A stretch of 38,069 bases of DNA from Candidatus Bathyarchaeota archaeon. Lineage in GTDB: Archaea > Thermoproteota > Bathyarchaeia > Bathyarchaeales > Bathycorpusculaceae. A program made the translations under genes and the position numbers. The notes under the pieces are model-generated. The model saw nothing but the letters and a program-made list of their open reading frames with translations. It was not told where the DNA came from and did not search any database. Location of the stretch: NCBI GenBank assembly GCA_029881805.1, contig JAOULW010000005.1, positions 64,001-102,069 on the forward strand, written 5' to 3'. Positions 5,691 to 38,069 of this stretch are shown in pieces (positions within the stretch are counted from its first letter, which is position 1; every line of letters begins with the position of its first letter).

Positions 5691-6467
5691 ATGAAACTTG
5701 ATCCAATTATCAAAATCATGCTTGAGCACAAGTCGATTCGCAAATACAAGGATGAGATGCCTTCAGACGAAGTCGTAGAAACAATTGTTAGAGCAGGTCA
5801 ACAGGCACCTTTTGCTTCGCAAGCCTACAGTGTTCTCTTGTCGCGTAAAAGAGAGCGCAACCCGTTCAAGTCTCCGCTTCTCTTCACTATCTGCGTTGAC
5901 TACCACAAATTTGAGCTAATCATGGCGAAGAGAGGCTGGAAACCAGTTACAAACGACATAACGTTGCTATTCTTCGGAATCCAAGACGCTGCGTTAATGG
6001 CGGAGAACATGGTTATAGCTGGCAGAAGCTTAGGGCTGGGAAGCTGTTTCCTTGGAAGTGCCATGTATCGCGCAGACAAAATTGCAGAAGAATACCGCGT
6101 GCCAAAAAGAGTCTTCCCACTTGTGCAATTAGCGATGGGGTATCCAGCCGAAGACCCGCCGCCGAGGCCACGTTACCCAAGAGAATTCACACTCTTCGAA
6201 GACTACTACCCCGAACTGGACGGCGAAACAATCACAAAAGCCATGAAAGTAATGGATGAAGGTTATCTTGCACAAGACTACTACCGCAATATGAACGCAA
6301 AAATCCCTATAGAAGCCAAAGACCGCGAAGAAACCTACACATACGACAACTACAGTTGGACAGAACATATCTGTCGCAAATGGGGGCAATGGTACCCAGA
6401 GCCAAAAGAACTGCTCGAACAACTCGAAAAACGCGGCTTTCACATCACTAGAAAAGAGCAAAAATAA
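5691..6467 (+). CDS. Nitroreductase-family flavoprotein
   Basis: This is an FMN-dependent oxidoreductase of the nitroreductase superfamily, 258 residues from ATG 5691. The N-terminal HKSIRKYKDEMPSDEVVETIV with RAGQQAPFASQAY is the family's FMN phosphate-binding start. The central MAENMVIAGRSLGLGSCFLGS and LVQLAMGYPAEDPPPRPR segments form the second FMN-contacting region. The C-terminal 80 residues, rich in Tyr and Trp, are an extension beyond the usual fold of about 180-200 residues. An in-frame upstream reading is open back to 5493, but it overlaps the divergent acetyltransferase and lacks family similarity, so I use the ATG just before the conserved part. Its physiological substrate is not evident. 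It ends eight bases from the convergent biotin carrier gene. Confidence 0.85.
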   Translation: MKLDPIIKIMLEHKSIRKYKDEMPSDEVVETIVRAGQQAPFASQAYSVLLSRKRERNPFKSPLLFTICVDYHKFELIMAKRGWKPVTNDITLLFFGIQDAALMAENMVIAGRSLGLGSCFLGSAMYRADKIAEEYRVPKRVFPLVQLAMGYPAEDPPPRPRYPREFTLFEDYYPELDGETITKAMKVMDEGYLAQDYYRNMNAKIPIEAKDREETYTYDNYSWTEHICRKWGQWYPEPKELLEQLEKRGFHITRKEQK

Positions 6468-6475
6468 GCAATAAT

Positions 6476-7015
6476 CTAGGCAATGATTGCCAAGACGTCC
6501 CCTTTGTTTACGACTGACCCTTCAGAAGCCCTAATTTCCTTTACAACGCCTGCCTTTGGCGTAACAACCTCATTTTCCATTTTCATAGCTTCTAAAATGC
6601 AGACGCACTCGCCCTTCTCCACTCTCTGCCCAACACAAGCTCTAACCAAGACAATCCTGCCAGCAATCGGCGCCGTCACCGCATCCTTTTCAATTTTCTT
6701 TATCACAGATTTTCTCGCAGCAGTAGCCACGGGTTCCAGCTTCATCGTAGCTTCTCTAGAGATTTTCGGGGAGGAAATCTGAACTTCGAAAAGTTTCCCG
6801 CCAATTTCAACCTTGAAAATCTTCCCTTGAATCCTTTTAACTCCGGCTTGAAAACGATGATCATTAATTTCTATTACAGTTTTTCCTTGAAAGCTGTTTG
6901 CCAGCTTAATATAAACGGATTTATCGTCAACCTTAACCAGAAAACTGTTGTTATTTCTCTCTAAAATCTCAACAGAATGTGGCTTACTATTTACAAAAAC
7001 CTCTTGCATTGTCAA
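6476..7015 (-). CDS. Biotin carboxyl carrier protein of acyl-CoA/pyruvate carboxylase
   Basis: This protein carries the biotin that shuttles CO2 from biotin carboxylase to a carboxyltransferase. The C-terminal domain (about residues 108-179) is a classic biotinyl barrel with LEAMKMENEV, the biotin being attached to Lys145. The first 80 residues form a beta-rich region resembling the BT-type linker of multi-subunit carboxylases. An Ala/Lys-rich linker connects the two. The start is a TTG overlapping the accC stop in a TTGA tetranucleotide, indicating translational coupling; an ATG two codons further on is possible. GGAGGTTGGG lies about 13 bases upstream. It could serve both PccB and PycB. Confidence 0.93.
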   Translation of the reverse strand: MTMQEVFVNSKPHSVEILERNNNSFLVKVDDKSVYIKLANSFQGKTVIEINDHRFQAGVKRIQGKIFKVEIGGKLFEVQISSPKISREATMKLEPVATAARKSVIKKIEKDAVTAPIAGRIVLVRACVGQRVEKGECVCILEAMKMENEVVTPKAGVVKEIRASEGSVVNKGDVLAIIA

Positions 7016-11236: not shown

Positions 11237-12934
11237 ATGGAGAAGTGCAATCACGACATAATCATTGTTGGAGCAGGCTTGGCAGGTCTGAGAGCAGCGG
11301 TCGCTGCCGCTGAAGTTGGCAACAAGCTCGACATTGCAGTTTTTTCTAAGCATCATCCGCTACGTTCGCATTCGGTTTGTGCGCAAGGAGGAACAGCCGC
11401 TGTGATGCATGAGAAAGATTCATTTGACTTACATGCCTTCGACACTGTAAAGGGTGCTGACTACCTCGCAGATCAGGACGCGGTGGAATTTTTCGTCAGA
11501 CGGGCGCCGAAAGAAATAGTTCTAACAGAACATTGGGGATGCCCATGGAGCCGCACACCAGACGGAAAAATGAACCAACGCCCTTTCGGTGGACACACTC
11601 AGCCAAGAGCATGCTTCGCCGCAGACATGACAGGCTTCCATGAAATGCACGCAATTTATGGAAAAGCCACAACTTACAGCAACATAAAATTCTATGACGA
11701 GTGGTTCGTAACTTCGCTGATAGTGGAGAATAATACAGCCATAGGGTTAACGGCTATAGAAATGACAACAGGCAAGCTGCATGCATTCACCGCAAAAGCC
11801 ATTGTAATGGCAACAGGAGGTCACGAACGCATATACGAATTCACAACGTTCTCGCACACGACCACAGGTGACGGAATGGCAATAGCGTATCGTGCAGGCG
11901 TGCCCTTAGAAGACATGGAATTTGTGCAATTTCATCCCACAGGCTTGATTCCTTCAGGAGTTTTAATAACGGAAGGAGCCCGCGGCGAAGGCGGATACTT
12001 AATAAATGCTAATGGCGAACGCTTCATGAAACGATATGCGCCGGAAAGAATGGAATTAGCTCCTCGTGACGTTATTTCAAGAGCAGAGCAAACGGAGATT
12101 CTCGAAGGCCGTGGACTACAGGGACCCTATGGGCCTTACATAGCTTTGAACCTCACGCACCTTGGTGAGGAAAAAATAAACGAACGATTACCGCTCATTC
12201 GCGATGTTGCAATAAAGCTTGGCGGAGTAGACCCTGTTAAAGAACCCATCCCAATTCGCCCGGCGGCACATTATTCTATGGGGGGGATCAGAATCAACGT
12301 AAAAACCGAAACACCAATCGCAGGATTGTATGCAGCTGGCGAATGCTCATGTATCAGCGTGCATGGTGCAAACAGGCTAGGCACAAACTCGACTGCTGAT
12401 TGTCTGGTTTTTGGGGTAGTTGCTGGTGAAGAAGCCGCAAGGCGTGCGTTGTCCACAAGCTTACGCGAGGTTTCGAAGGAGAAACTTCTTGCAGAAGAGA
12501 ATAGGATTGCTGAAATCCTCAACAGAGAAGGCTCTGAGCGAATTTCAGTCATCAGAGACCAAATGAGACGAATTATGAACGAGAAGGTCTGGATTTACAG
12601 AAGAGGCGACCAGCTCGAAAGCGCATTGAAGGAAATAAGAGAGCTTAGAAAAAGGTTCAAAGACATAAAAATTGAAGATAAGGGCAAATCATTCAACACA
12701 GGATTCTTTTCGGCGCTGCAACTTGATTTCATGTTGGAGCTTGCTGAAGTCACCGTAGCCAGTGCAATTCCGAGAACAGAGTCGAGAGGCGCACATTCCA
12801 GGCTTGATTATCCCAAACGTGACGACCAAAACTGGCTAAAACACACATTAGCTTATTGTACGAAAGATGGTCCACGACTTGAGTACATTCCAGTTACAGT
12901 GACCAAGTGGCCGCCAGTCGCGAGGAAATACTAG
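11237..12934 (+). CDS. tfrA: Fumarate reductase / succinate dehydrogenase flavoprotein subunit (TfrA-like)
   Basis: This FAD-containing catalytic subunit interconverts fumarate and succinate. Residues 12-17 are GAGLAG (FAD dinucleotide fold). RSHSVCAQGGTAAV follows near 43-56, where SdhA/FrdA proteins bind FAD covalently through the His. The active-site stretch QFHPTGLIPSGVLITEGARG and the RPAAHYSMGGI segment carry the conserved His and Arg residues. LGTNSTADCLVFG completes the FAD site. At 565 residues it is of normal length. The SD GGTGA and an upstream TATA-like box support the ATG. The next gene is a TfrB-like fusion rather than an ordinary SdhB, with no membrane-anchor genes following, which points to a soluble thiol:fumarate reductase-type enzyme. 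Confidence 0.93.
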   Translation: MEKCNHDIIIVGAGLAGLRAAVAAAEVGNKLDIAVFSKHHPLRSHSVCAQGGTAAVMHEKDSFDLHAFDTVKGADYLADQDAVEFFVRRAPKEIVLTEHWGCPWSRTPDGKMNQRPFGGHTQPRACFAADMTGFHEMHAIYGKATTYSNIKFYDEWFVTSLIVENNTAIGLTAIEMTTGKLHAFTAKAIVMATGGHERIYEFTTFSHTTTGDGMAIAYRAGVPLEDMEFVQFHPTGLIPSGVLITEGARGEGGYLINANGERFMKRYAPERMELAPRDVISRAEQTEILEGRGLQGPYGPYIALNLTHLGEEKINERLPLIRDVAIKLGGVDPVKEPIPIRPAAHYSMGGIRINVKTETPIAGLYAAGECSCISVHGANRLGTNSTADCLVFGVVAGEEAARRALSTSLREVSKEKLLAEENRIAEILNREGSERISVIRDQMRRIMNEKVWIYRRGDQLESALKEIRELRKRFKDIKIEDKGKSFNTGFFSALQLDFMLELAEVTVASAIPRTESRGAHSRLDYPKRDDQNWLKHTLAYCTKDGPRLEYIPVTVTKWPPVARKY

Positions 12935-12946
12935 GAGGATACAATC

Positions 12947-14512
12947 ATGAGCACAAAAGTTGAGAAGATAGTTGAGTTCAAGATAAGTCGGTTTGACCCA
13001 GAAAGCAAGAAGCATTACGTTTCTACTTATAAAGTGCCCATTCGCAAAGGAACGACTATACTCGAAGCGTTGCTGTACATTAAAGATAACCTTGACGAGT
13101 CGCTTAGCTTCAGGCACTCATGTAGAATGGGAATTTGCGGAAGCTGCGGAGTCAACGTCAACGGGAAACCAATGCTTGCTTGTTACACGCAAGTGCTGCA
13201 TCTTGACGCTGACTCGCTGCTCATTGAGCCACTTGCCAACATGCCAGTCATAAAAGACTTGGTTGTCGACATTCAACCGTTCTTCGACGCCTACAAGAAA
13301 ACTAAGACGATTCTGATTAAACCTGAAGAAGCCCTTCAGAAGCCCACGGAGTTTATCCAAATGCCCGCAGAACTTAAAAAGTTCTGGGATCTAACGCTGT
13401 GCACAAAATGCTCAATCTGCTATTCAGCTTGTCCAGCTGCAATAGACGAGAGATTTCTCGGACCTGCGGCTTTAACTGCCAATTATAGATTCGTCATAGA
13501 TTCGAGAGACGAAGGTTGTCCAGAACGATTGAAACCAATGGAAGATAATATTTGGCTATGTACTCAATGCAACTCATGCACGTTGTTCTGTCCAAAACTT
13601 GTAAGCTGTGCAAACTCGATAGTTGAAGACCACAGTCTTCTGGTAGAAGCTGGAAACATTCCAAGAACAGTAAAAGATGTGCTTGAAAGCGTCTACAAAT
13701 ACCATAATCCGATGGCGACACATCAGAGCAAAAGAATGGACTGGGCTGAGGGCTTGAACGTCAAGACTTTTCCAGAGATTACAAGCGCAGACGTTTTGTT
13801 CTTCGTTTGCTGCTCAGCGGTTTACGATCTCAGAAACCGCGAAGTTGCCAGAATAATGGCGTCGATATTCAATAAAATGGGCGTCAACTACGCGACTCTT
13901 GGCACTGAGGAATGGTGCTGCGGAGACCACGTGCTTAGAATGGGCGAAAAAGGAATGTTCGAAGAACTGGCTCAACACAACATTGGGACGTTTACAAAAC
14001 TAAAGGCGGAAAAAATCGTTACGTTGTCGCCACATTGCTACAACACGTTCAAAAATGACACGCCGTACGTTGATGAAAAACTGAATGTTCAGCACTATAC
14101 ACAATTCTTGGCTGAAGCCATTCAACAAGGTAAAATCAAACCCTCAAAGCCAGTCAAGAAAAAAGTCGCCTATCACGACCCATGTTTCCTAGGAAAACGC
14201 AACGAAATATATGACGCGCCAAGACAGATCCTACAAGCAATAAGCGGCTTGGAACTAAGTGAAATGAAGAGAACAAGAGAAAGCAGCTTCTGCTGTGGAG
14301 GAGGAGCTGGAAGAGTATGGACTGAGGAAGCGTTGCCGGAGAAGAGGCCTTGCGTCGACCGTATCAAGGAGGCACTTGAGCTCGGTGTGGACACAATAGC
14401 AGTGGCTTGTCCGTTCTGTGTGACAACTTTGGAAGACGCTGTGAAAGTGCTCGATGTCGAAAACAAGATTGCAGTCAAAGATGTTTTGGAGCTTTTAAGA
14501 GAAGCAATTTAG
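12947..14512 (+). CDS. tfrB: TfrB-like subunit: fumarate reductase iron-sulfur protein fused to an HdrB-like CCG domain
   Basis: This subunit carries electrons to the flavoprotein. The N-terminal third is SdhB/FrdB-like: a [2Fe-2S] site SCRMGICGSCGVNVNG...LAC, then CTKCSICYSACP and CTQCNSCTLFCPK. The C-terminal half has two CCG modules. The second is intact (C-x35-CC...CPFC, with SSFCCGGGAGRVW). In the first, the expected CxxC is SPHC, with one Cys replaced by Ser. Methanothermobacter TfrB has the same FrdB-HdrB architecture and oxidises CoM-SH plus CoB-SH while reducing fumarate. Start ATG 12947 has a perfect AGGAGGAT that overlaps the tfrA stop, so the two are coupled. Whether the thiol partners here are CoM and CoB is unknown. 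Confidence 0.88.
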   Translation: MSTKVEKIVEFKISRFDPESKKHYVSTYKVPIRKGTTILEALLYIKDNLDESLSFRHSCRMGICGSCGVNVNGKPMLACYTQVLHLDADSLLIEPLANMPVIKDLVVDIQPFFDAYKKTKTILIKPEEALQKPTEFIQMPAELKKFWDLTLCTKCSICYSACPAAIDERFLGPAALTANYRFVIDSRDEGCPERLKPMEDNIWLCTQCNSCTLFCPKLVSCANSIVEDHSLLVEAGNIPRTVKDVLESVYKYHNPMATHQSKRMDWAEGLNVKTFPEITSADVLFFVCCSAVYDLRNREVARIMASIFNKMGVNYATLGTEEWCCGDHVLRMGEKGMFEELAQHNIGTFTKLKAEKIVTLSPHCYNTFKNDTPYVDEKLNVQHYTQFLAEAIQQGKIKPSKPVKKKVAYHDPCFLGKRNEIYDAPRQILQAISGLELSEMKRTRESSFCCGGGAGRVWTEEALPEKRPCVDRIKEALELGVDTIAVACPFCVTTLEDAVKVLDVENKIAVKDVLELLREAI

Positions 14513-27398: not shown

Positions 27399-27893
27399 CT
27401 AAAGGAGAACCTCCAGCAACGTACATACGACATTTTGTACTGAATTTCTGATTTCTGATGATAATTCTTCCCCAAAATCTACCTTCTTGGGTTCTAACAA
27501 CAACAAGGCGATTTTGGCGTTTATTGCTTTTCCAAGGTATTCGCAGAATATTCGTAGCGGAAGCATGTGCGTTGAGAATGCTGGGAAATTTGTCAATTCT
27601 TTCGGGCTAATGAGTCTAGATTCTCCCGGTTTTAACCCAAGAATTGCAGCATCTATTAGCAGTACGTGTGTTGGTTTGAAGTCTATTACTTGCTGAATGT
27701 AGCTTTCTGGAACGGTTTCACATTCGATCAGCAAAACTTTCTCAGAGACTTTTCCATGCAAGTCCTGAACTATTTTGACTCCAACATAATCGTCCATGCG
27801 AATTGGATTTCCAATGCCTGCTATAACGACTCTTTCAGCGTCTGAAAGCCACTTCTTCAATTCTTTTTTAATATTGTATTCTCCGCTGGCCAA
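27399..27893 (-). CDS. Hydrogenase maturation protease (HycI/HoxM/FrcD family)
   Basis: This endopeptidase removes the C-terminal peptide of the NiFe hydrogenase large subunit after nickel is inserted. Motifs are VIAGIGNPIRMDDYVGVKIV, with the metal-binding Asp of the DD pair, ECETVPESYI, and VLLIDAAILG. The protein has about 164 residues. I place the start at TTG 27893, with GGAG eight bases upstream; TTG 27908 is an alternative. It lies 30-45 bases after the MvhA stop, the last dedicated gene of the hydrogenase operon, and the large subunit does keep a 25-residue C-terminal tail to be cut. Confidence 0.9.
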   Translation of the reverse strand: MASGEYNIKKELKKWLSDAERVVIAGIGNPIRMDDYVGVKIVQDLHGKVSEKVLLIECETVPESYIQQVIDFKPTHVLLIDAAILGLKPGESRLISPKELTNFPAFSTHMLPLRIFCEYLGKAINAKIALLLLEPKKVDFGEELSSEIRNSVQNVVCTLLEVLL

Positions 27894-27940
27894 AGAATTT
27901 CTCCACAAGACCTAACAAAATGAGGATAGAGAAAAAAGGT

Positions 27941-29395
27941 TTATCTTTGCACTGTTCTGAGCAATTCTTTTTCGCTGTTGAATATTTCGATAGTTAGTGG
28001 CATCTGTCCAATTGCAAAGTGTGTGGCGCATCCGAAACATGGATCATAAGCTCTGAAAGCCATTTCAACCATGTTAAGCAAGCCTTGATCTACTTTGTTG
28101 CCGTGAATCAATCCTTTAGCCGCGTCACGAATTGACATGTTTATCGCTGGACAGTTGTTTGTGGTTGCCACGATCAGATTCACGTCCTTAATCAGCGCAT
28201 TCTCATCCAAAACGTAGTGGTGTATGAGCGTGCCTCTCGCGGCCTCAACAATGCCAACGCCTTCGCCTGGCTCACCCGGCTTGTTGCGTACTTCTGTGCT
28301 TGTTGTTTCTGGGTCTCTGCTCAATTCTAATGTGCGCTCAGCCGCATAAAGTAGCTCAATGAGTCTAGCCCAGTGGAAAGCCAATGTCGAATGTACGGGT
28401 TTTCCTCCCAAAGTTTTGTACATGAGCTCATGTTCTGCCTGTGCAAGGGGGGTCGTCATGCCGTTTGAAGCGTTAAGTCTTCCGAGTGGTCCAACGCGGT
28501 AAACGCCATTATCTGCGCCGTCCACCCAGCCTTTCCAGCCCACCTTTTTCAAGTATGGGAACTTCACGTAGGTCCATTCTTCAACGTGTTCTCCAATGTG
28601 GTTGAGATAATCCTTAGGCTCAAACTTTAAAAATTCCTTTCCAGATGGGTCTACCACGCGAATCTTGCCATCATAGAAATTGACTTTATTATTCTCGTCA
28701 ACCATGCCCATGTAATAAGTCTTCAGCGTGTAGGCATCACTCTTAATCAAATCAACATATTTGCTGTTTCCCAAAACAATGTCATGAAAGAGTTTCAAGG
28801 TGAATTTCGCAAACTCCACAGAGGAGGCAGCCATCTTTTCGATTTCCTGTCTATTCTCTTCATTTAGAGCCTTAGACATTCCACCTGGCAATCCGCACAC
28901 GGGGTGGGTAGCCTTTCCTCCGATTAGTTCGGTTATCCTCTGTCCGTATGCTCTGTGTTTAATCACTTCTTTGCCGATTTCCAAGCCTGCCTTCTCAATT
29001 ACACCGATGACATTTCGTTTCTCTGGAGGCGCATCTGGACCAACCACGAAATCTGGTCCACCGAGATAATAGAAATGCAATGTGTGGTCGTAAATGTAGT
29101 AGCCGCAATACATTAGTTCTCTAAGCTTCTTGGCTGCCGACGGCGGCTCTACATTGAATGCGGCGTCTAAGGCTTTTGTTCCAGCCATGTGGTGCGCAAC
29201 TGGGCAGACTCCGCAGATTCTGCTCGTCAGAAGTGGCATGTCTTCGGCTTTTCTTCCAATGCAGAATCTTTCAAAACCCCTGAGTTCGGGGACTTGCAAG
29301 TAGGCATTTGCGACTTCTCCTGCGTCATCAAGGAATATAGCTATTTTTCCATGTCCCTCGAGTCTCGTTACTGGGTCTATAAGTATCTTCTTCAT
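27941..29395 (-). CDS. mvhA: F420-non-reducing [NiFe] hydrogenase large subunit
   Basis: This is the nickel-binding catalytic subunit that splits H2. The two ligand pairs are RICGVCPVAHH (Cys61, Cys64) and DPCFGCATH (Cys453, Cys456, His459), so it is an all-cysteine, non-selenocysteine enzyme with both halves in one chain. The 25 residues after His459 are the expected maturation peptide. At 484 residues it has the usual length for Mvh/Vhu. The ATG overlaps the mvhG stop in TAATG, indicating coupling. The gene order mvhD-hdrC-hdrB-mvhG-mvhA fits a soluble H2:heterodisulfide/ferredoxin bifurcating complex. Confidence 0.95.
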   Translation of the reverse strand: MKKILIDPVTRLEGHGKIAIFLDDAGEVANAYLQVPELRGFERFCIGRKAEDMPLLTSRICGVCPVAHHMAGTKALDAAFNVEPPSAAKKLRELMYCGYYIYDHTLHFYYLGGPDFVVGPDAPPEKRNVIGVIEKAGLEIGKEVIKHRAYGQRITELIGGKATHPVCGLPGGMSKALNEENRQEIEKMAASSVEFAKFTLKLFHDIVLGNSKYVDLIKSDAYTLKTYYMGMVDENNKVNFYDGKIRVVDPSGKEFLKFEPKDYLNHIGEHVEEWTYVKFPYLKKVGWKGWVDGADNGVYRVGPLGRLNASNGMTTPLAQAEHELMYKTLGGKPVHSTLAFHWARLIELLYAAERTLELSRDPETTSTEVRNKPGEPGEGVGIVEAARGTLIHHYVLDENALIKDVNLIVATTNNCPAINMSIRDAAKGLIHGNKVDQGLLNMVEMAFRAYDPCFGCATHFAIGQMPLTIEIFNSEKELLRTVQR

Positions 29396-30375
29396 TACTT
29401 AATCACCTTCCTCCTGAGAATTGAAGCCGCTAAAGCGTACATGTAGAACGTTCCTATAGGGTCTTTGATTTGGCTCATCAGCTTCTCAACATCTTCCTCC
29501 GAATACTTCTCTTTCTCTTCTTCCAAGCCTAATATAGAAGCCAATGCGCTTATCATTGCTGCGCCCTGTTCAGGCGAGTTCGGGCAAGGTCCACCGCAAC
29601 CAGTGCAAGGCATGTCAGCGTTCAAGCATCTGGCACCGCATCCACCTCTAGTCGCTGGACCCATGCAAATTATACCTTGCTCCAACAGGCATCTTTCTGG
29701 TTCAGGAACCTTTTCATAAGTTCGATATATCTTGGTGATTTTCTTGTTTTCCTTCTTTCTTGGACATTCATCGCAGACTGATTTCAGTGGTGCCAATACC
29801 GAGCCTTTAGGTGGCAATTCGCCCTTTGCTATCGCTTCTACTGCAAATAATGTGCGTTCAACAGCAGGCGGGCAACCTGGCACATAGTAGTCAACATCGA
29901 CCACTTGGTCCAAGGTTCTAACGCTATCATAGAATTCGGGAATGTCCAGCTCTCCTTCTTTTACATGCACTGAAGGTTGAGGTGTTATCTTCTCAGCGTT
30001 TATTGTTGAAAAAGTGGAAAAGTACGCTTTTTCGAAAACTTCTTTTTTGTTTGCCATGTTTGCTAATCCAGGGACTCCGCCGAGGTGGGCGCACGCTCCG
30101 TAGGCGACAAGTATTTTTGATTTCTGTCTCAGAATTTTAGCCAAGTGTTCTTGTTCTGGGTTTCTTATTCCACCATTAAAGAAGCAGACGTCTACGTACT
30201 TGTCTGGCATGGCTTCAACGTCTTTGTATTTGATGTCCATGGCCACGGGCCAGAAAACAATGTCGGCTATTTGTATAACGTCAAGTATTTTCTCGTTTAT
30301 GTCCAATACTGCGATTTCGCAGCCACCGCAGCTCGCAGCCCAGTAAAAGGCTACTTTTAATTTGTCTTTGGCCAT
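29395..30375 (-). CDS. mvhG: F420-non-reducing [NiFe] hydrogenase small subunit
   Basis: This is the iron-sulfur subunit passing electrons from MvhA to MvhD. Cys16 and Cys19 (WAASCGGCE) start the proximal cluster, followed by GACAHLGGVPG and PGCPPAVE. The C-terminal part has CDECPRKK, CLLEQGIICMGPATRGGCGARC, and CTGCGGPCP for the medial and distal clusters. At 326 residues it fits MvhG. There is no Tat signal, in agreement with a cytoplasmic enzyme. The ATG follows directly on the hdrB stop (TAAATG). Confidence 0.93.
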   Translation of the reverse strand: MAKDKLKVAFYWAASCGGCEIAVLDINEKILDVIQIADIVFWPVAMDIKYKDVEAMPDKYVDVCFFNGGIRNPEQEHLAKILRQKSKILVAYGACAHLGGVPGLANMANKKEVFEKAYFSTFSTINAEKITPQPSVHVKEGELDIPEFYDSVRTLDQVVDVDYYVPGCPPAVERTLFAVEAIAKGELPPKGSVLAPLKSVCDECPRKKENKKITKIYRTYEKVPEPERCLLEQGIICMGPATRGGCGARCLNADMPCTGCGGPCPNSPEQGAAMISALASILGLEEEKEKYSEEDVEKLMSQIKDPIGTFYMYALAASILRRKVIK

Positions 30376-31266
30376 TTATTTCTCCCCTTCAGCAATCTGT
30401 TTCAAGATTTTGGAAGCGTCCACTCTGAGCTCGCCTATCGCGAGTTCTTCGGGTGATAAGCCCATTGCCAAACCAAGCAATTGCGGATAATGCAAGATCG
30501 GAATTCCGTACGTCTCATTGAACATTTTCTCTATGCGCAATTCGTTTGTATCATACATTATGTGGCAGAATGGGCAGATGGTTATCATGGCTTGAGCATC
30601 AACCATTTTAATGTGATTCAGCTTGTCTCTCGCAAGTTGTAGTGCAATCTTGTCGCTTACACCCACACTTGGGGCGCCGCAGCATTCAGTTTCATCCATA
30701 TAATCTAAGCATGTTGCGCCTGTAGCTTCGATCAAGGTCTTGAGTGTTTTAGGGTCTTCTGGGTCGTCAAACCCGATGAATTCTCTGGGTCTCAAAATGT
30801 GGCAGCCGTTGTGCTCAGCAACTTTAAGCGTAGTAAGTGGCTTAACGACAGTGTCCTTTATTTTTTCCAAGCCAACGTCCTCAATTAGCACCTGCATTAT
30901 GTGCTTCGCGTCTGCGGTTCCCTTGAATTCCAATCCAGCCTCTTTCAAATGCCGATTAATTTCTTCTCGTAACGCTTTGTCTTCTTTCAACACCTTGTTG
31001 ACTTTCTTCAAAGTGCCTGCGCAACCCGGGCAGAGAGTCAAAATGTTTAAGCCTTTCTGCTCAGCCAATGCTAAATTCCTAGCCGCAAGTATGAGCATCA
31101 TCTCGTGGCTAACAGGGTCCAACGGAAGACCACAACAGTTGAACTCTGGCATTTCAACAAGCTCTACGCCCAGTTTCTGGAGAACTTTCCGCGACGAGAT
31201 TTCGTAGGCTGACACTCGATAGGGAATTGCGCATCCGAGAAAGATTAGATATTTGTTCTCCGCCAT
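30376..31266 (-). CDS. hdrB: Heterodisulfide reductase subunit B
   Basis: This subunit carries the non-cubane [4Fe-4S] clusters that cleave a disulfide such as CoM-S-S-CoB. Two full CCG modules are visible: the first with LGC, C-x31-CC in EFNCCGLPLDP, and CPGC; the second HNGC, C-x39-CC in DETECCGAP, and CPFC. At about 296 residues it has the usual length. Start ATG 31266 has AGGTGAG seven bases upstream, the SD overlapping the end of hdrC; an in-frame GTG at 31278 is an alternative. It lies downstream of hdrC and upstream of mvhG. The real disulfide substrate in this organism is unproven. Confidence 0.93.
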   Translation of the reverse strand: MAENKYLIFLGCAIPYRVSAYEISSRKVLQKLGVELVEMPEFNCCGLPLDPVSHEMMLILAARNLALAEQKGLNILTLCPGCAGTLKKVNKVLKEDKALREEINRHLKEAGLEFKGTADAKHIMQVLIEDVGLEKIKDTVVKPLTTLKVAEHNGCHILRPREFIGFDDPEDPKTLKTLIEATGATCLDYMDETECCGAPSVGVSDKIALQLARDKLNHIKMVDAQAMITICPFCHIMYDTNELRIEKMFNETYGIPILHYPQLLGLAMGLSPEELAIGELRVDASKILKQIAEGEK

Positions 31267-31270
31267 TTTT

Positions 31271-31789
31271 TTACTCACCTTGCTTTTCCAAATGCTTCAA
31301 AAAACCTAATCCACGAAGCGTCTTGCATATGCTTTCCGGGTTGCCTTTCGGTAATGGAGGCAAACCCAAGGATTCTCGTTTCTTCATTCTCAATTCTGGA
31401 ATTTTGTAGGCGTAACCGGAATCAAGAACGCTTGAGACTTGTTCTTTAAAAACTCGGGGCACAATTCCTTTTTCAGCAGCCAAATTCCTTAACACACGGA
31501 TTACGCTGGCTACCTCTACGCCTTGCGGACAGCGGTCTGTGCATGTGAAGCATGATGCACACAGCCATAGCGTATCACTGTTTAGTACTCTTTCTTTAAG
31601 TCCAAGTTGCGTCATGCGAATTATCTGTCTCGGTCTGTAAGTCTCGCTGAATCTTGCGACTGGGCAGTCTGATGTGCATGTTCCACACTGGAAACACCGC
31701 ATCAGTTTTTCTCCGCCATGCATTTTTGTAATTTCATACTTGAATTTCGTATCTATTTCTGAAGCCTTAATCGGCTCTTTTTCTACCAT
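31271..31789 (-). CDS. hdrC: Heterodisulfide reductase subunit C
   Basis: This is a two-cluster ferredoxin-like subunit linking HdrA to HdrB. Its Cys motifs are CFQCGTCTSDCP (residues 32-43) and CASCFTCTDRCP (77-88), with the helical linker RQIIRMTQLGLKERVL between, as in HdrC/GlpC proteins. The length is 172 residues. Its ATG overlaps the mvhD stop in TAATG, and its stop overlaps the possible GTG start of hdrB. Confidence 0.92.
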   Translation of the reverse strand: MVEKEPIKASEIDTKFKYEITKMHGGEKLMRCFQCGTCTSDCPVARFSETYRPRQIIRMTQLGLKERVLNSDTLWLCASCFTCTDRCPQGVEVASVIRVLRNLAAEKGIVPRVFKEQVSSVLDSGYAYKIPELRMKKRESLGLPPLPKGNPESICKTLRGLGFLKHLEKQGE

Positions 31790-32226
31790 TATGCGTTTTT
31801 CTCCTTACTTTTTAAAGGGCTTGGTCCAAGCCTTTTTATTTGTTTCACCATGTCCCGCACAATAGAGGCAAATCTGTCGCCTTCGCTTGCTGAAACCCAT
31901 TCTAATCGCAAGCGTTCAGGTTCAATTCCGAAATCCTTTAGCACTTCTTTTAGAAGAGTTATCCTTCTCAAGGCTTTAAAGTTCCCGCTGATGTAATGAC
32001 AATCTGACGGTAGATGGCAGCCTGCTACAAGCACTCCGTCTGCGCCGTCTTTGAATGCTTCGAGAATGAATGCAGGGTCTATTCTGCCACTGCACATTAC
32101 GCGTATGATTCTTATGTTGGGAGGGTACTGAATTCGGCTCACCCCGGCTAGGTCTGCACCCGCATAAGAGCACCAGTTGCACAGAAAGCCGATGATTCTC
32201 GGTTCAAATTCGCCCTTTCCGCTCAT
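31789..32226 (-). CDS. mvhD: MvhD-type [2Fe-2S] adaptor subunit
   Basis: This small iron-sulfur protein of 145 residues couples the hydrogenase to HdrA. Conserved Cys are Cys16 and Cys19 (FLCNWCSYAGAD), Cys45 (VMCSGRIDP), Cys70 and Cys76 (GCHLPSDCHYISGN). The start is ATG 32226, which overlaps the hdrA stop in ATGA; the longer in-frame reading to 32334 lies inside hdrA and is rejected. A second MvhD-like protein is encoded at 35245-36000, but this one is the closest to canonical length. Confidence 0.92.
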   Translation of the reverse strand: MSGKGEFEPRIIGFLCNWCSYAGADLAGVSRIQYPPNIRIIRVMCSGRIDPAFILEAFKDGADGVLVAGCHLPSDCHYISGNFKALRRITLLKEVLKDFGIEPERLRLEWVSASEGDRFASIVRDMVKQIKRLGPSPLKSKEKNA

Positions 32227-35200
32227 GCTTCTACCTCCACTAGCGCAGCTTTGACCTGGGCAAGTATCTCTTCTGTCGTGAAGTGACCCATTATGATGGC
32301 TTTGGTTGGACAAGCTGTTCCGCAGGCTCCGCATCCCTTACATAAGGCTTCGGTCACGTGTGCAATGGGCTTGCCATCTTTTTCCTTCATTTCGATTGCA
32401 CCGTACGGGCATAGATATTCACAAATCCTGCAACCGCTACATAAATCTTCGTTCACGTTTGCTATGATTCCTTCCATCTCAAGTGTTGGTTTTGAGAGTA
32501 TGGTTGTTGCCCGTGCTGCCGCGGCGCATGCCTGAGCGATGCTTTCCTCAATGTATTTTGGAGAATGCGCCATTCCACAAAGGAAAACGCCGTCTGTGGC
32601 GAAGTCAACGGGTCTAAGTTTCATGTGGGCTTCCAAGAAGAACCCGTCCTTCGTTAATGGCACTTTGAGCATTTCTGCCACGCGCTTGTTGTCTGGGTTC
32701 GGAATCGTAGCTGCGCTCAGAACCACAAGGTCTGGTTCGATTTGAACCACTTCCTTAATTACGGGTTCCCAGAAAGTTACTTTTATTTTTCCATATTCGT
32801 TTGCAACTTCAGGCTTTCTTTCGTCTTCATAATTAATAAAAAGGACCCCTTTTGTTGCGGCCTCTCGATAATAGTCTTCTTTGAAGCCATAAGCGCGCAG
32901 GTCCTTGTATAAGACGTAAACTTCTGTTTCGGGGCTTACCTCTTTAATCTTCAGAGCGTTCTTGATCGCTTGTCCACAGCATATTCTTGCACAGTTCGGT
33001 CGTTCATCATTTCTCGCTCCGACGCATTGAATCATGACGACATTTCTAGCTCCAAATTCTCCATTCGCAATTTTTTCTTCCAGTTCATGCTGCGTCATCA
33101 CCTTTGGGTTTTTGCCATAAAGGTATTCAGTTGGCTTGTATTCGATTGCGCCTGTTGCAACTATTACTATTCCGTGTTCTACCTCCTTTTGTTCACCGTT
33201 TCGCTGTCTTATTTTTGATTTGAAGTTGCCAACAAAGCCAGTCAAATCAGCGACTTCTGCTCCTAAGTAAACATGGATTTTATCGTTTTCCATAACCGAC
33301 TTTATGAGAGCGTTCAGTTTCGCTTTAGGGTCATCTCTATCCAGCAAGTAATGAAGTGTACTTAAATGTCCGCCCAGTTCGTTTTCTCTTTCGACAAGAT
33401 GCACCTCAAACCCCTGCTTTGACAGCTCCACCGCAGCAGTCATGCCAGAGACACCACCACCAATAATCAAGCCAACAGGTGTAACGTTTATCAATGGCTT
33501 TTTTAACGGCTTCAAAAGCTTAGCCTTTGCAACTATTGACCGCACGAGATCTTTGGCTTTTTCTGTTGCTTCTTTAGGCTCGTGCATGTGCACCCAGCTG
33601 CACTGATCTCGAATGTTTGTCATCTCAAACAAGTAGGGGTTCAATCCAGCCTCTTGCACTGTCTCCTTGAATAAAGGTTCATGCGTACGGGGAGTGCAAG
33701 ATGCCACGATAACACGGTTAAGGTTGTTTTCTTGGATTTTTTCTCGGATGAGTTTCTGTGTATCCTGCGAGCATGTGTAGAGATTAGCTTCCGCATAGAC
33801 TACATTAGGCAAAGATTTAGCATATTCCACCAGTTCAGGGACGTTCACAACTCCGCCTATGTTAATGCCGCAGTGGCAAACGAAGACGCCAATTCGAGGC
33901 TCTTCTTGGCTTACGTCTCTCTCCGGCGGATATTCCTTAGGGGCTACAAGAGTGCCTCTTTCAGACGCAATCACACTCATCGCTTTAGCTGCTGCGCCAC
34001 TCGCTTGCGCAACGCTTTCGGGAATGTCCTTAGGAGCAGAGAACGCACCACACACGAATACACCTGGTTTTGACGTGTCTACGGGTGAGAAACTTGACGT
34101 TTCGCAGAATTTGTAGCTGTTGAGCCTAATTCCAAAGTTTTTAGCCAATGCTTCAACATTTTTTGGAGGTCGCATTCCAATTGACAAAACAATCATATCG
34201 AATTCTTCTGTCTTTGGAGTTTCATCCTCAACATAGTGAACAAAAAGGTTGCCTGTTCTCGGGTCTTCAGTCACGCCCGCTACTCTTGACCTTACGAACT
34301 TTATGCCCCACTCGTCTTTGGCACGATTATAGTAGGCGTCAAACTCTTTTCCATAGGCACGCATGTCCATGTAAAAGATTGTGCAATCAAGGTTCGAAGG
34401 CGTGTGTTCCTTAGCTATTACGGCTTCTTTCATGCCGTACATGCAACATGCGGCAGAACAATAGTTGTTTCCAAGCTGGAAATCTCTCGAACCAACACAT
34501 TGAATGAAAGCTATTTTCTTCGGAATGTCGCCGTCTGAAGATCTTAAAACCAGCCCGCCGTATGGTCCAGAAGCGCTCAAGATGCGTTCAAATTCAATGC
34601 TTGTAACGACATTCTGAAAGCGTCCATAACCGTACTCGCTTTTCAACCTTGCATCAAAGGCTTCGAATCCTGGTGCAAGAATTATTGAACCTACGTTCAG
34701 TGTGGCTTCGCTATCTTTTTGGTCATACTCTATTGCCTTTGCCTTGCAAATCTCGTAGCACGTCCCACATCCAATGCACTTTTCACGGTCAATCATGTAC
34801 TTTAGTGGAACTGCCTGGGGATATTCCACATAGATTGCGCATCTCTTGCTCAGCCCTTTATTGAACACGTCGACAGCTTCGATTGGGCATTTCTGTGCAC
34901 AGATGCCGCAGCCGTTGCATTTGTCTTCGATTATGTAACGGCTTCGTTTTCGAATTTTTACTTCGAAGTTTCCAACTTCACCGTCTAGTCCTGTTATTTC
35001 CGTGTTTGTCAAGATTGTGATGTTCGGGTGTCTTCCGGTTGCTACAAGCTTGGGCGAAAGAATGCACATTGAACAGTCGTTTGTTGGGAATGTCTTGTCG
35101 AGTTGAGCCATCACTCCGCCGATGCTTGGTCCTTGGTCGATTAAGTACACTTTGAAACCCGAATCTGCCAAGTCTAATGAGGCTTGTATGCCTGCAACTC

Positions 35201-35243
35201 CTCCGCCGACTACGAGAACTGCACCAATTTTCTGGTTTGCCAT
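32223..35243 (-). CDS. hdrA: Tandem HdrA (two HdrA-like flavin modules in one chain)
   Basis: This is the flavin subunit where electrons are bifurcated. At 1006 residues it is about 1.5 times a canonical HdrA (about 650). The N-terminal module (about 1-435) has FAD motif GGGVAG (13-18), FPTNDCSMCILSPKL, and an inserted two-cluster ferredoxin (Cys109-119 and Cys156-166). The C-terminal module has an HdrA N-domain cluster starting FVCHCGINIGG (Cys456, 458, 491, 516), a second FAD motif GGGVSG (595-600), no inserted ferredoxin, and a C-terminal ferredoxin (Cys935-945, 968-978). The repeat is obvious from IQCVGSRD and IQCVGARND. Start ATG 35243 lies one base after the upstream stop; the ORF reading to 35288 is inside the previous gene. 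Confidence 0.92.
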   Translation of the reverse strand: MANQKIGAVLVVGGGVAGIQASLDLADSGFKVYLIDQGPSIGGVMAQLDKTFPTNDCSMCILSPKLVATGRHPNITILTNTEITGLDGEVGNFEVKIRKRSRYIIEDKCNGCGICAQKCPIEAVDVFNKGLSKRCAIYVEYPQAVPLKYMIDREKCIGCGTCYEICKAKAIEYDQKDSEATLNVGSIILAPGFEAFDARLKSEYGYGRFQNVVTSIEFERILSASGPYGGLVLRSSDGDIPKKIAFIQCVGSRDFQLGNNYCSAACCMYGMKEAVIAKEHTPSNLDCTIFYMDMRAYGKEFDAYYNRAKDEWGIKFVRSRVAGVTEDPRTGNLFVHYVEDETPKTEEFDMIVLSIGMRPPKNVEALAKNFGIRLNSYKFCETSSFSPVDTSKPGVFVCGAFSAPKDIPESVAQASGAAAKAMSVIASERGTLVAPKEYPPERDVSQEEPRIGVFVCHCGINIGGVVNVPELVEYAKSLPNVVYAEANLYTCSQDTQKLIREKIQENNLNRVIVASCTPRTHEPLFKETVQEAGLNPYLFEMTNIRDQCSWVHMHEPKEATEKAKDLVRSIVAKAKLLKPLKKPLINVTPVGLIIGGGVSGMTAAVELSKQGFEVHLVERENELGGHLSTLHYLLDRDDPKAKLNALIKSVMENDKIHVYLGAEVADLTGFVGNFKSKIRQRNGEQKEVEHGIVIVATGAIEYKPTEYLYGKNPKVMTQHELEEKIANGEFGARNVVMIQCVGARNDERPNCARICCGQAIKNALKIKEVSPETEVYVLYKDLRAYGFKEDYYREAATKGVLFINYEDERKPEVANEYGKIKVTFWEPVIKEVVQIEPDLVVLSAATIPNPDNKRVAEMLKVPLTKDGFFLEAHMKLRPVDFATDGVFLCGMAHSPKYIEESIAQACAAAARATTILSKPTLEMEGIIANVNEDLCSGCRICEYLCPYGAIEMKEKDGKPIAHVTEALCKGCGACGTACPTKAIIMGHFTTEEILAQVKAALVEVEA

Positions 35244-35244
35244 A

Positions 35245-36000
35245 TTACTTAACCTCCAATGCCTTGTAAAATGGTGTTGTCCCTTCAATGTGGTCTAGGG
35301 TCATCATGTTGCGCCTACGCATGTTCACGATTTGTCTGAGAACAGTAGCAGGTTTCATTCCAACCGCTTCTGACAATGTTTTAATCGATAACGGTTTAGT
35401 CTGCGTTAAAACGTGGATCTTTTGCTGGACAAACTCTGAGGCAACAATTTCCTCTAATAAACTGTTAAACTCCTCAATAGGAATTTTCTCTCCATACACA
35501 TTAACGCTTTCAGTTAATTCCTTTTCTCTGCCAAGCAAAACTCTCAATCGAAACTCAGAAGCGACGTTTTTGGCAGCCAAAATATTAATCATAAGTGGCG
35601 ATTCTGAAACTGCCTTTTTGATTGGAGAAAGCACAAGTTTTCTCATTTCTTCAGTATATTCTTTCGTATAACTGCTGAAGCTTTTCTTATCTATAGGCGA
35701 ATACCATAGTAGCTTCAGGCGTTCTGGTTCCAAACCTGCCAAACACATAAGTTTTTTGAGCACTTTAACCGTAATTTCTGCTTGACTGTTACCTTCGATA
35801 TAGTGGCAATCTGGAGGTTTGCAACCAACAAGCATAACAGCGTCTGCGCCTTTCTCTAACATCTCAAGAATCAGCACAGGATCGATTCTTCCAATGCAAT
35901 TTACCCGTGCAATACTTGTGTTGGATGGGATTCGCATTTCTGTTTGGCAAAAGGCGAAGTTGCACATGAAGCATGCAATTTTTGGTTCATTATTCTCCAT
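35245..36000 (-). CDS. MvhD-like protein with C-terminal winged-helix-like extension
   Basis: The N-terminal 130 residues are MvhD-like: ACFMCNFAFC (Cys10, 13, 18), NCIGRIDP (Cys35) and GCKPPDCHYIEGN (Cys60, 65), binding a [2Fe-2S] cluster. Residues 135-251 are an extension absent from the downstream mvhD. The end, LSIKTLSEAVGMKPATVLRQ followed by IVNMRRRNMMTLDHIEG, reads as a winged helix-turn-helix. It may be a structural docking domain or a redox-responsive regulator. It lies between the GltD-like gene (stop two bases from its ATG) and hdrA, suggesting that it passes electrons from that flavoprotein to HdrA, with the tail as a binding module. Confidence 0.85.
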   Translation of the reverse strand: MENNEPKIACFMCNFAFCQTEMRIPSNTSIARVNCIGRIDPVLILEMLEKGADAVMLVGCKPPDCHYIEGNSQAEITVKVLKKLMCLAGLEPERLKLLWYSPIDKKSFSSYTKEYTEEMRKLVLSPIKKAVSESPLMINILAAKNVASEFRLRVLLGREKELTESVNVYGEKIPIEEFNSLLEEIVASEFVQQKIHVLTQTKPLSIKTLSEAVGMKPATVLRQIVNMRRRNMMTLDHIEGTTPFYKALEVK

Positions 36001-36001
36001 G

Positions 36002-37723
36002 TCATTTTCCCCCTGCTGTTGCTAGAGCAAGGCTTTCAATCTGCTCGTCAGTAAGCTTCTTCATCGTTATGGCTCGTTCTGGGCATCTTGCAGCACATAT
36101 TCCACATCCCTTGCAAAGGTCTTCGTTTACTTGGGCAACTCCATCTTCGTTCTTTTTGACAGCTTCAAATGGGCACACAACAGCGCATACATTACAGCCT
36201 ATGCAAAGGTCTTCATCAACAATAGCCTTGTCACCCTCGCATAAGTCCAAATTTGCAAGACATTCTGCACATGGACCACAGCCTAAACAACGAAAAGCCT
36301 CAAACATGGCTTTTCGCCTTATACTTTCAAGGTACCTAGCCGCTTCTTCAAAGCTTAAACGCGGTTTCGCTGATGGCGGTTCATACCTTCGTTCTTTCTT
36401 GCTGAGAGAATCCCAATTTTTAACCCATGTTGTCTCTTCGATGCCTTCGTCTCTTCCACTTCGCAAGTCTTGCCCAGTGAGGTAAAGATGAATGGAAACC
36501 GCAGCTCTTTTTCCAGCTCCAACGGCTTCAATAATGCTTGCAGGTCCTGTGGCTATGTCTCCCCCTGCAAAGACGCCGGGTGTTTCAGTTTCTAAGGTTA
36601 CTGGATCAACTTTCATTGACGGAACCCGTGCTTTCATGTCCAAAAGCTCCTTTGGTATGCATTCTGGCTCCGCAACTTGCCCAAGTGCAGGAATTACTGT
36701 GTCCACTTCATATTGATGTTCTGAAAAGCTTATGGGAATAGGGCGTCTTCTTCCGCTTTCATCTGGTTCTCCTAGACGCATTCGCAGGCATTCAATGGCT
36801 TTGACCTTGCCATTTTCGCCTATGATCTGTTTCGGGGCGACCAGAAAATAGAGTTTGACCCCGTCTCTTTCAGCTTCTGCTACTTCATGTGGCAGCGCGG
36901 GCATTTCTTCTCGCGAGCGCCTGTATAAGATCATTACTTCTTTTGCGCCACGTTTTTTAGCTGTTCTCGCAGCGTCTATTGCGCTGTTACCGCCACCGAC
37001 AACTGCAACTCTATCTCCAACATCAACATGTTTTCCAAGTGCCACATCTCTCAAAAAATCAACAGCGTTTATGACGCCCTCCAAATCTTCACCTGGGACG
37101 TTTAACTTCATGCCAAGCTGCGCTCCAATGGCTATAAAAATGGCTTTGTAGCCCTCCTTTCGCAAGCTTTCAAGAGTCACGTCTTTTCCAAATTCTGCGC
37201 CTGTCTTGATTTCCACACCCAGATCTTTGATGTACGCTATTTCGTTTGCCACAACAAATTTTTCGAGTCGAAAGTCTGGTATGCAATATCGCATCATGCC
37301 GCCAAGTTCAGACATGCGCTCAAAAACTGTTACCGGATATCCGAGCTTTGCAAGCTCGTAGGCTGCTGTTAGGCCTGCTGGACCTGCACCGATTATCGCA
37401 ACCTTTTCATTAGATTTATTTGGTACTGGTTTGGATTTGACGCGTCCCTGTTCACGTTCGATGTCAGCGACTAATCTCTTTAACGCGCGTATAGCCACTG
37501 CTTGGTCCACATTTGTTCTTGCGCAAGCGTCTTCACATGGGCTGAAGCAAACTCTTCCGCATATCGCTGGGAAAGGCATGTCTTTTCTTATAATTTCTAC
37601 AGCGTCTCTGAATTTTCCTTTTTGAATGAGAGAAACGTACCCTTGAACGTTTACATGTGCTGGGCATGCTGTTCTGCAAGGTGGCAGTTGTCTCTTTACA
37701 TTCGTGTCATTATTCTTTGCCAT
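36002..37723 (-). CDS. GltD/NfnL-like NAD(P)H-dependent flavoprotein with C-terminal ferredoxin domains
   Basis: This flavoprotein of 573 residues resembles the glutamate synthase small subunit and NfnB/NfnL. N-terminal Cys16, 20, 55, 59, 63, 67 hold two [4Fe-4S] clusters (PPCRTACPAHVNVQGY, CGRVCFSPCEDACAR). FAD motif GAGPAG is at 112-117, the NAD(P) motif GGGNSA at 243-248, and LYRRSREEMPALPHE, typical of NADPH-binding GltD, follows. The extra C-terminal region has CLGCGPCAECLANLDLC, CIGCNVCAVVC and CKGCGICAARC. No glutamate synthase large subunit is present. As first gene of the Hdr operon it probably feeds or drains NAD(P)H electrons. Start ATG 37723 lies just downstream of a TATA box; TTG 37765 would lie in the promoter. 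Confidence 0.9.
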   Translation of the reverse strand: MAKNNDTNVKRQLPPCRTACPAHVNVQGYVSLIQKGKFRDAVEIIRKDMPFPAICGRVCFSPCEDACARTNVDQAVAIRALKRLVADIEREQGRVKSKPVPNKSNEKVAIIGAGPAGLTAAYELAKLGYPVTVFERMSELGGMMRYCIPDFRLEKFVVANEIAYIKDLGVEIKTGAEFGKDVTLESLRKEGYKAIFIAIGAQLGMKLNVPGEDLEGVINAVDFLRDVALGKHVDVGDRVAVVGGGNSAIDAARTAKKRGAKEVMILYRRSREEMPALPHEVAEAERDGVKLYFLVAPKQIIGENGKVKAIECLRMRLGEPDESGRRRPIPISFSEHQYEVDTVIPALGQVAEPECIPKELLDMKARVPSMKVDPVTLETETPGVFAGGDIATGPASIIEAVGAGKRAAVSIHLYLTGQDLRSGRDEGIEETTWVKNWDSLSKKERRYEPPSAKPRLSFEEAARYLESIRRKAMFEAFRCLGCGPCAECLANLDLCEGDKAIVDEDLCIGCNVCAVVCPFEAVKKNEDGVAQVNEDLCKGCGICAARCPERAITMKKLTDEQIESLALATAGGK

Positions 37724-37763
37724 TGTTAAACCAGCTTGAAGCAGAGTAGTACCCTTACTTGCC

Positions 37764-37775
37764 AAATATATTAAG
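37764..37775 (-). promoter_or_regulatory. Likely promoter of the Hdr-Mvh operon (TATA box)
   Basis: On the minus strand this reads CTTAATATATTT, a good archaeal TATA box. It would start transcription near 37740, with a leader of about 17 bases to ATG 37723. This is the only clear promoter-like element in the 10-kb operon, and it helps to decide the start of the GltD-like gene. Confidence 0.45.
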
Positions 37776-37850
37776 TCACCTAAATCAGCTTTGACGCAAA
37801 TATAGCATACCTAACGGAAAACACAGCCGCATAAAAAATGGAAAGTGGGG

Positions 37851-38069
37851 TTATTCTCGTAATCTTCCCTCTAGCTTAGCAACCCACTTATTGTATTCTC
37901 GTGCGCCTAACAGGCTTTTCAGTTCTTGCTCCATGACCAACGAGTTTTTAGGCTTTATCTCTACTATCCAGCCTTCGCCGTATGGATCTTCGTTTATTGT
38001 GCGAGGCTCATCTTTCAGGTTTTCGTTGATTTTGACTATTTTGCCACTGACTGGCGCGTACAGGTCAAA
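37851..38069 (-). CDS. gcvH: Glycine cleavage system H-like lipoyl protein (N-terminus off the edge)
   Basis: Only the last 72 residues are in the window, ending at TAA 37851-37853. They read [20 protein letters not shown] followed by [20 protein letters not shown] and a tail with [20 protein letters not shown]. This matches the C-terminal half of the GcvH lipoyl domain (SPVSGxVxxxN, PYGxGW), but the lipoyl lysine itself lies outside. It could be the glycine cleavage carrier, or an Hdr-associated lipoate-binding protein. It is on the same strand as the Hdr operon, 127 bases upstream of its first gene, with the TATA box between. Confidence 0.88.

Follow-up and report, generated by a model that had tools for sequence, protein, structure and literature searches.

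Results

A tailed MvhD gene within an Hdr operon

The stretch of DNA analysed here, which we call the window, comprises 38,069 nucleotides of a Candidatus Bathyarchaeota contig, and its minus strand carries the gene set of a putative electron-bifurcating Hdr complex (hdrA, hdrB, hdrC and mvhAG together). Within this set, an open reading frame of 251 codons at 35245-36000 (minus strand; start ATG at 36000, stop at 35245) encodes an MvhD-like (FlpD) protein with a C-terminal winged-helix tail. An earlier note on this DNA had given no strand for the feature; it is read on the minus strand, and the plus strand of the same interval holds many stops. The upstream partner, at 36002-37723 with its ATG at 37723, is a GltD-like flavoprotein with a C-terminal 4Fe-4S dicluster domain (NF009410, 520.6 bits against a cut-off of 516). 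Downstream, a long (double) HdrA occupies 32223-35243, with its ATG at 35243. A single base separates the tailed gene from its neighbor on each side, just as expected from the placement between flavoprotein and HdrA described in the earlier note. The first half of this HdrA begins to align at position 141 of the HdrA2 profile, and its N-terminal iron-sulfur domain is therefore missing.

Beyond HdrA, and still on the minus strand, lie a second, standard and untailed MvhD (31789-32226, placed by profile), an HdrC-like protein (31271-31789; Pfam Fer4_8/Fer4_17), an HdrB-like protein (30376-31278; CCG), an MvhG-like hydrogenase small subunit (29395-30375; Oxidored_q6), an MvhA-like hydrogenase large subunit (27941-29395; NiFeSe_Hases) and a HycI-type hydrogenase maturation protease (27399-27908; HycI, 54.2 bits). 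The order of the HdrC-like to MvhA-like genes is conserved in relatives, and the spacing of the Hdr genes suggests that they are co-transcribed. Upstream of the GltD gene, at 37764-37775 on the minus strand, an AT-rich TTAATATATT element is a probable promoter; the element, TTAATATA, is shared by five of the six operon starts aligned. The earlier note had singled out this region for a test of DNA binding; we take the element to be an archaeal TATA box, and it is probably that rather than an operator. Seven relatives (L119-L121, L123-L125 and L127) have another hdrA-mvhD-hdrC-hdrB set, located a few kb upstream of their GltD operon. Elsewhere in the window, at 11237-14512, the gene for a fumarate-reductase-type flavoprotein precedes one whose product has 2Fe-2S and CCG domains, a pair that we presume may be a thiol:fumarate reductase-like enzyme.

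The FlpD domain and its missing cysteine

Residues 5-122 (35635-35988, minus strand) form the FlpD domain, and residues 19-122 match Pfam FlpD/MvhD (PF02662) with an E value of 9.2e-30 and 103.6 bits, against a cut-off of 22.3. The same relationship emerges from solved structures, both by sequence (E 1.3e-18 to 4.9e-15 against MvhD/ElpC chains) and by fold (Z 17.9-19.2 for the model of the window protein against MvhD/ElpC of solved Hdr complexes). FlpD has five near-universal cysteine columns, a definition drawn from the 204 FlpD stretches compared here and not from Pfam, and the window protein keeps four of the five (Cys13, Cys35, Cys60 and Cys65); at position 16, where CNWC has its second cysteine, it has alanine. 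The earlier note had called this a [2Fe-2S] MvhD-like domain. The family assignment holds, but the domain is not canonical, and its [2Fe-2S] cluster is putative.

The loss at position 16 follows a strict pattern. Cysteine occupies positions 13, 35, 60 and 65 in all 60 tailed copies, counting an in-frame TGA at position 60. Position 16, in contrast, is Ala, Ser or Val in each of the 19 tailed MvhDs that follow a GltD, the window included, versus Cys or an in-frame TGA in 41/41 other tailed copies and in 142/144 untailed ones; over all 204 stretches the tally is 183 Cys or in-frame TGA, 20 Ala, Ser or Val, and one gap. At one locus, L127, both versions occur in the same operon, the GltD-linked copy without Cys16 and the HdrA-linked copy with it. 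The sources of the GltD-linked copies are genomes belonging to the window's order, together with the Bathyarchaeota MAGs of L001, L002 and L004 and the Thermoproteota MAG of L003, and the absence of Cys16 may accordingly reflect a single ancestral loss.

Of the 204 stretches, 18 have an in-frame TGA at position 60 and 13 have one at position 16; one or the other is seen in L214-L233 (e.g. L222, 8317-8688) and in L008 (5998-6366). By analogy with VhuD, these codons are putative selenocysteines. The selenocysteine-containing MvhD of Desulfobacterium autotrophicum, in the portion of that report consulted, provides a second analogy (PMC2702500).

The tail is a winged helix preceded by a conserved segment

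The tail comprises 117 amino acids (residues 135-251). The earlier note had called the tail winged-helix-like, and the fold is borne out; the winged helix proper is, however, confined to about residues 175-241 (35278-35478, minus strand), where the AlphaFold2 model places helices at 175-198 and 206-213, a recognition-type helix at 217-229 and a short wing at approximately 230-241. Residues 135-174 (35479-35598, minus strand) form a separate segment that is more conserved than the winged helix and includes the well conserved R153, G157, N167 and Y169.

The fold emerges from the family. Taken alone, the window protein reaches only sub-threshold helix-turn-helix models in its tail (HTH_24, E 0.077), and the best of the Pfam HTH matches listed reach at most 14.4 bits against cut-offs of 21.9 to 33. 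A profile built from 28 tails, by comparison, finds winged-helix or helix-turn-helix regulators as all of its best five matches in the PDB: 1uly (E 4.5e-6), 2p4w (2.5e-5) and HlyU chains (4.4e-5 to 8e-5, including 4k2e at 4.4e-5). A ketol-acid reductoisomerase ranks sixth (E 0.0014), with mostly HTH regulators again after it. At E <= 0.5, PF0610-like_N is matched by 27 of the 28 tails and the ArsR model HTH_5 by 23, and in two relatives the HTH_5 score exceeds the 22-bit cut-off, namely the tail of L211 (31.3 bits) and the standalone tail of L165 (27.7 bits). The AlphaFold2 model, computed from 28 rows (the window protein and proteins of related loci), has a mean pLDDT of 89.5 and a pTM of 0.87, with low confidence in the last ten residues; a single-sequence model (pLDDT 46.3) was set aside as poor. 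Foldseek with the whole model returned only four MvhD/ElpC chains from the PDB at E <= 1e-3, and VIA-align of the whole model likewise matched only the N-terminal domain; the fold of the tail therefore rests on the profile matches and on the helix pattern of the model, both of which indicate a winged helix.

The tails are 27-72% identical to that of the window. Their best conserved residues are R153 (59/60), G157 (57/60), N167 (58/60), Y169 (Tyr or Phe in 60/60), E189, I195 and P243 (57 of the 58 tails with a residue there), and none of these lies in the recognition helix. The aligned tails contain no conserved cysteine, and we therefore rejected the idea that the tail replaces the iron-sulfur cluster of the lost HdrA N-terminal domain. 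An alignment of that domain (8rvy_A, residues 11-142) to the FlpD model scores Z 7.3, which is in the tool's range for a common arrangement and is a lead only.

The tail tracks the downstream HdrA

FlpD, the tail, HdrA, GltD, HdrB, HdrC, MvhG and MvhA were placed by profile in 127 loci. Removal of exact DNA duplicates and of stretches with fewer than 70 profile positions reduced 208 FlpD stretches to 204. A tail was paired with an FlpD stretch no more than 150 bases away on the same strand, with TGA read through, and an HdrA was scored as N-less (lacking the N-terminal domain) where its match starts in the first 40 residues. By these definitions 60 of the 204 distinct stretches are tailed, in both archaea and bacteria, and every one of the 60 tails is in frame with its FlpD, with no intervening stop. 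The MvhD-winged-helix fusion of the window is thus not unique. Similarity to the query or the tail was the basis for choosing the loci, many of which are close relatives, so that the counts given here do not represent independent events.

The contrast between tailed and untailed copies lies on the downstream side. An N-less HdrA follows within 700 bases in 58/60 tailed copies (largest gap, 408 bases) versus 7/144 untailed copies, and the tail therefore goes with the following gene and not with the preceding one. The two tailed exceptions are L204, where a GltD-MvhD pair is followed by no HdrA, and L211, where NuoE/NuoF-like genes follow; L204 belongs to a genome, G400, that at L003 also has an N-less HdrA with no MvhD before it. 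Among the 144 untailed MvhDs the next gene is an N-less HdrA in 7, a complete HdrA in 12, HdrC in 36 and MvhG in 26, with 61 preceding none of the query genes and two lying at a contig edge. All 12 MvhDs directly before a complete HdrA are untailed and come mostly from ANME-type archaea. The seven untailed copies before an N-less HdrA are pairs at L041, L043 and L053 and one copy at L165, the latter at a contig edge with its upstream gene beyond the sequence. Among the 144 untailed MvhDs, none was scored as having a flavoprotein upstream together with an N-less HdrA within 700 bases downstream; L209 is a near-exception, with an HdrA upstream of an untailed MvhD that lies 754 bases before an N-less HdrA.

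The upstream side, on the other hand, is much the same in both groups: an HdrA or GltD match lies directly upstream of 56/60 tailed and 127/144 untailed MvhDs, and so this partner does not explain the tail. In the tailed group the upstream match is GltD in 19, a long HdrA match in 35, a ferredoxin-domain match only in two (L005 and L206) and nothing recognised in four; in the untailed group, 88 of the 127 are assigned by a match of at least 200 residues and 39 by the ferredoxin-domain end. The six tailed copies without a flavoprotein directly upstream mean that a chain of modules does not fit all cases. Across archaea and bacteria, and with different upstream partners, the gene-order rule holds.

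Distribution, arrays and standalone tails

Among the best 80 of 233 matches, full-length relatives come from four Bathyarchaeota/Thermoproteota MAGs, one Methanomassiliicoccales, two Lokiarchaeia/ota and two Syntrophobacteraceae MAGs, and the nearest named relative is a Bathyarchaeota MAG (L001, 48% identity). Within the window's phylum, the protein finds a match at 1e-25 in 26 of 398 genomes, and the tailed form is present in 15 of the 398 (17 loci), the window included. In the class of the L008 genome (Syntrophobacteraceae), a tail match at 1e-9 occurs in 37/55 genomes, some at contig ends. The window's own genome holds nine FlpD stretches, of which only that at 35245-36000 is tailed, and a second match to the tail profile (E 7.1e-6) that covers the HTH part only. 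Several candidates for the fusion were rejected: at L012, L015, L017, L019 and L048, a stop terminates MvhD and what follows is other sequence, and at L074 the tail is a response-regulator receiver domain. The L074 protein (6001-6804; Response_reg, 115.3 bits), an MvhD fused to that receiver domain, lies between HdrA and MvhG. A different extension is seen in a 294-aa MvhD of L165 (13641-14525), with 4Fe-4S ferredoxin motifs at its C-terminus.

Some operons carry more than one tailed copy. Two are present in L002, L127, L006/L213 and L220, and in a Methanomassiliicoccales genome (G402), four tailed MvhDs alternate with four HdrAs in an array of about 17 kb (L205, 6653-19900, and the adjoining L206, 12-3581), which opens with a ferredoxin-type open frame containing masked bases and closes with an untailed MvhD. 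A fifth HdrA in this array was rejected, as the first 'HdrA' is that same 152-residue frame.

Only two standalone tails were found. One of 115 aa (L003, 1746-2093) is divergent from an hdr operon that starts with an N-less HdrA without an MvhD; the other, of 123 aa (L165, 10609-10980; hhalign probability 98.3), is the first gene of a tail-HdrC-HdrB set in genome G142, where the MvhD before the N-less HdrA is untailed. Two further short-frame matches (G418:C241 and G446:C117) lie at contig ends and were rejected. Both standalone tails would fit a part supplied in trans, a suggestion to which they lend weak support. There are 69 N-less HdrA matches, fragments counted, without any upstream MvhD, and in the fetched loci no standalone tail beyond those of L003 and L165 was found near them; the tail is therefore not needed by every such HdrA.

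Charge and conservation of the recognition helix

The recognition helix of the window protein is basic (net +5 over 16 positions) and is well kept within its clade, so that this member may bind DNA. Over 62 tails, however, the net charge of the recognition-helix stretch ranges from -2 to +5 and that of the winged-helix region from -4 to +7, and the exposed positions of the helix are variable. Thus, of the properties that the earlier note had proposed to look for, a basic rather than acidic helix is found in the window and does not extend to the family, and a conserved recognition helix fails across the tails, whose best conserved residues lie elsewhere. Judged from the aligned sequences, a conserved basic recognition helix is not the family-wide trait that would be looked for in a regulator. 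Over the 420 bases that cover the operon start (37650-38069), we found no inverted repeat with arms of at least 8 within 40 bases; an operator of another kind may be present.

Discussion

Overall, we lean towards a model in which the tailed MvhD is a joint between two modules, with its winged helix docking onto the next, N-less HdrA, a reading suggested by the fact that the tail tracks the downstream N-less HdrA and not the upstream flavoprotein. In this model the tailed MvhD would be one subunit in a series of linked flavoprotein modules. The FlpD domain would exchange electrons with the upstream module, which in the window is GltD-like and of NAD(P)H type and in other lineages is mostly an HdrA. 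The tail, whose winged helix has in most members lost its resemblance to a DNA reader, would dock MvhD onto the next HdrA at its first half, where an N-terminal iron-sulfur domain is missing. R153, G157, N167 and Y169 are candidates for the docking face. The last MvhD of a chain usually has no N-less HdrA after it, and it has no tail. In the window itself, one Hdr complex, predicted to bifurcate electrons, would have two electron inputs: GltD and the tailed MvhD would bring in electrons from NAD(P)H, and MvhAG and the untailed MvhD those from H2. Both the direction of electron flow and physical docking are inferred here, and adjacency of genes is not contact between proteins.

The closest rival keeps the docking and changes the partner. 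The earlier note, in preferring docking to redox sensing, had the flavoprotein in mind, and indeed in 54 of the 60 tailed copies the gene directly upstream gives a GltD or HdrA match of at least 200 residues, and the GltD of the window ends one base before the tailed gene. Yet a preceding HdrA or GltD match is found for the great majority of untailed MvhDs too, and the terminal untailed MvhD, which has no tail at all, comes after a long HdrA of the same type; the flavoprotein is probably the wrong partner, and we consider upstream docking doubtful. A further possibility is that the tail dimerises MvhD, winged helix to winged helix, and joins two Hdr arms with no direct flavoprotein contact. 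ArsR-type winged helices are usually dimers. HdrABC is itself a dimer in a solved complex, according to the part of the source consulted (PMC9012536). Such dimerisation, however, leaves the dependence of the tail on the downstream HdrA type unexplained, and we rate it a little lower than upstream docking.

Two other readings, which we place lower again, give the tail either a quite different role or none. As a redox-sensing transcription factor, the protein would sense redox through its [2Fe-2S] domain and repress or activate its own operon through the winged helix. The fold is related to ArsR-type regulators, the window clade keeps a basic recognition helix, and the standalone tail gene of L003 is divergent from its hdr operon, as a regulator gene might be. 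Set against this are the variation in charge and exposed positions of the helix, the absence of an inverted repeat from the 420 bases searched around the operon start, the FlpD part with its four of five conserved cysteines, the way the tail tracks HdrA architecture, and arrays of up to four copies. We therefore favor a connector over a regulator because tandem copies, such as the four in L205/L206, are expected of a stoichiometric part used once per joint and are hard to justify for a regulator. The regulator reading is unlikely, and the earlier preference for docking over redox sensing is now the better supported. Alternatively, the fusion could simply have been inherited in one operon lineage, with no specific role for the winged helix and with a gene order that reflects common descent. 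The loci may share one ancestral arrangement and the tails retain 27-72% identity to that of the window, but some tail residues are nearly invariant across archaea and bacteria, and the GltD- and HdrA-linked copies of L127, which differ strongly in their FlpD loop, both keep the tail. This, too, strikes us as improbable.

A joint that docks onto the next HdrA thus remains our preferred reading. More tentatively, and with less conviction than we attach to docking itself, we suggest that a DNA-binding fold has been turned into a plug: tailed MvhDs would daisy-chain flavoprotein modules and replace the docking site of the missing HdrA N-terminal domain, and the GltD-linked version would have given up Cys16 for an NAD(P)H flavoprotein. 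The gene-order rule says which MvhD sits between two modules, making the order of modules readable from sequence; the tail is a concrete part to delete, or to seek in cryo-EM maps of multi-HdrA complexes; and the strict loss of Cys16 from MvhDs linked to GltD offers a second way to test how MvhD adapts to another electron partner.

In the open-licence PMC literature we found no FlpD with a winged helix, and the parts consulted of the papers retrieved (including PMC6019823, PMC12350162, PMC2702500, PMC9012536, PMC12054007, PMC6085437, PMC13119186 and PMC2988823) gave no description of a helix-turn-helix tail on MvhD or of its dependence on HdrA type; in the part of PMC3087415 consulted, 'winged' and 'C-terminal extension' refer to proteins other than MvhD. 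From the portions consulted, double and GltD-inserted HdrAs have been described (PMC12054007, PMC9012536), as has a tandem hdrL/hdrA arrangement with mvhD in Desulfobacterium autotrophicum (PMC12054007, PMC9012536, PMC2702500). In the same portions, the functions of modified HdrA paralogs are a matter of speculation only (PMC9012536), and the two major HdrA types newly detailed have no biochemistry yet (PMC12054007).

Among known systems, the nearest counterparts of the tailed protein are MvhD, VhuD and ElpC of methanogen Hdr complexes (PF02662; 5odc, 7bkb, 8rvu), which share its FlpD domain over 122-131 residues at the Z scores given above. Methanogen MvhD likewise lies beside HdrA, HdrBC and MvhAG. 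The window protein differs in carrying some 117 extra residues that include a winged helix, in lacking Cys16, with the following loop remodelled, and in being encoded directly after a GltD-like flavoprotein and not a hydrogenase. The last ~70 residues of the tail share a sequence profile with ArsR/SmtB-like winged-helix regulators (1uly, PH1932; 2p4w; HlyU), but the tail is fused to an electron-transfer subunit, its recognition helix is unconserved, and several copies can occur per operon. In L211 (1693-8018), from a Desulfatitalea MAG, the order of HdrA, tailed MvhD, NuoE-like and NuoF-like genes is one that we take to resemble bamEFGH, which would liken this tailed MvhD to BamF of class II benzoyl-CoA reductase. 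The HdrA types supply the remaining comparisons, on the basis of the parts of the sources consulted. MvhD is coupled to HdrA both here and in the HdrA2-type fusions (type Ia), where it is fused at the HdrA C-terminus (PMC12054007), whereas in the window a gene of its own encodes the tailed MvhD ahead of the next HdrA. Of the double (type II) and GltD-inserted (type III) HdrA arrays that have been described (PMC12054007, PMC9012536, PMC2702500), the former kind supplies the downstream HdrA in the window and in most loci, and the latter supplies it in loci such as L222, L223 and L227-L233.
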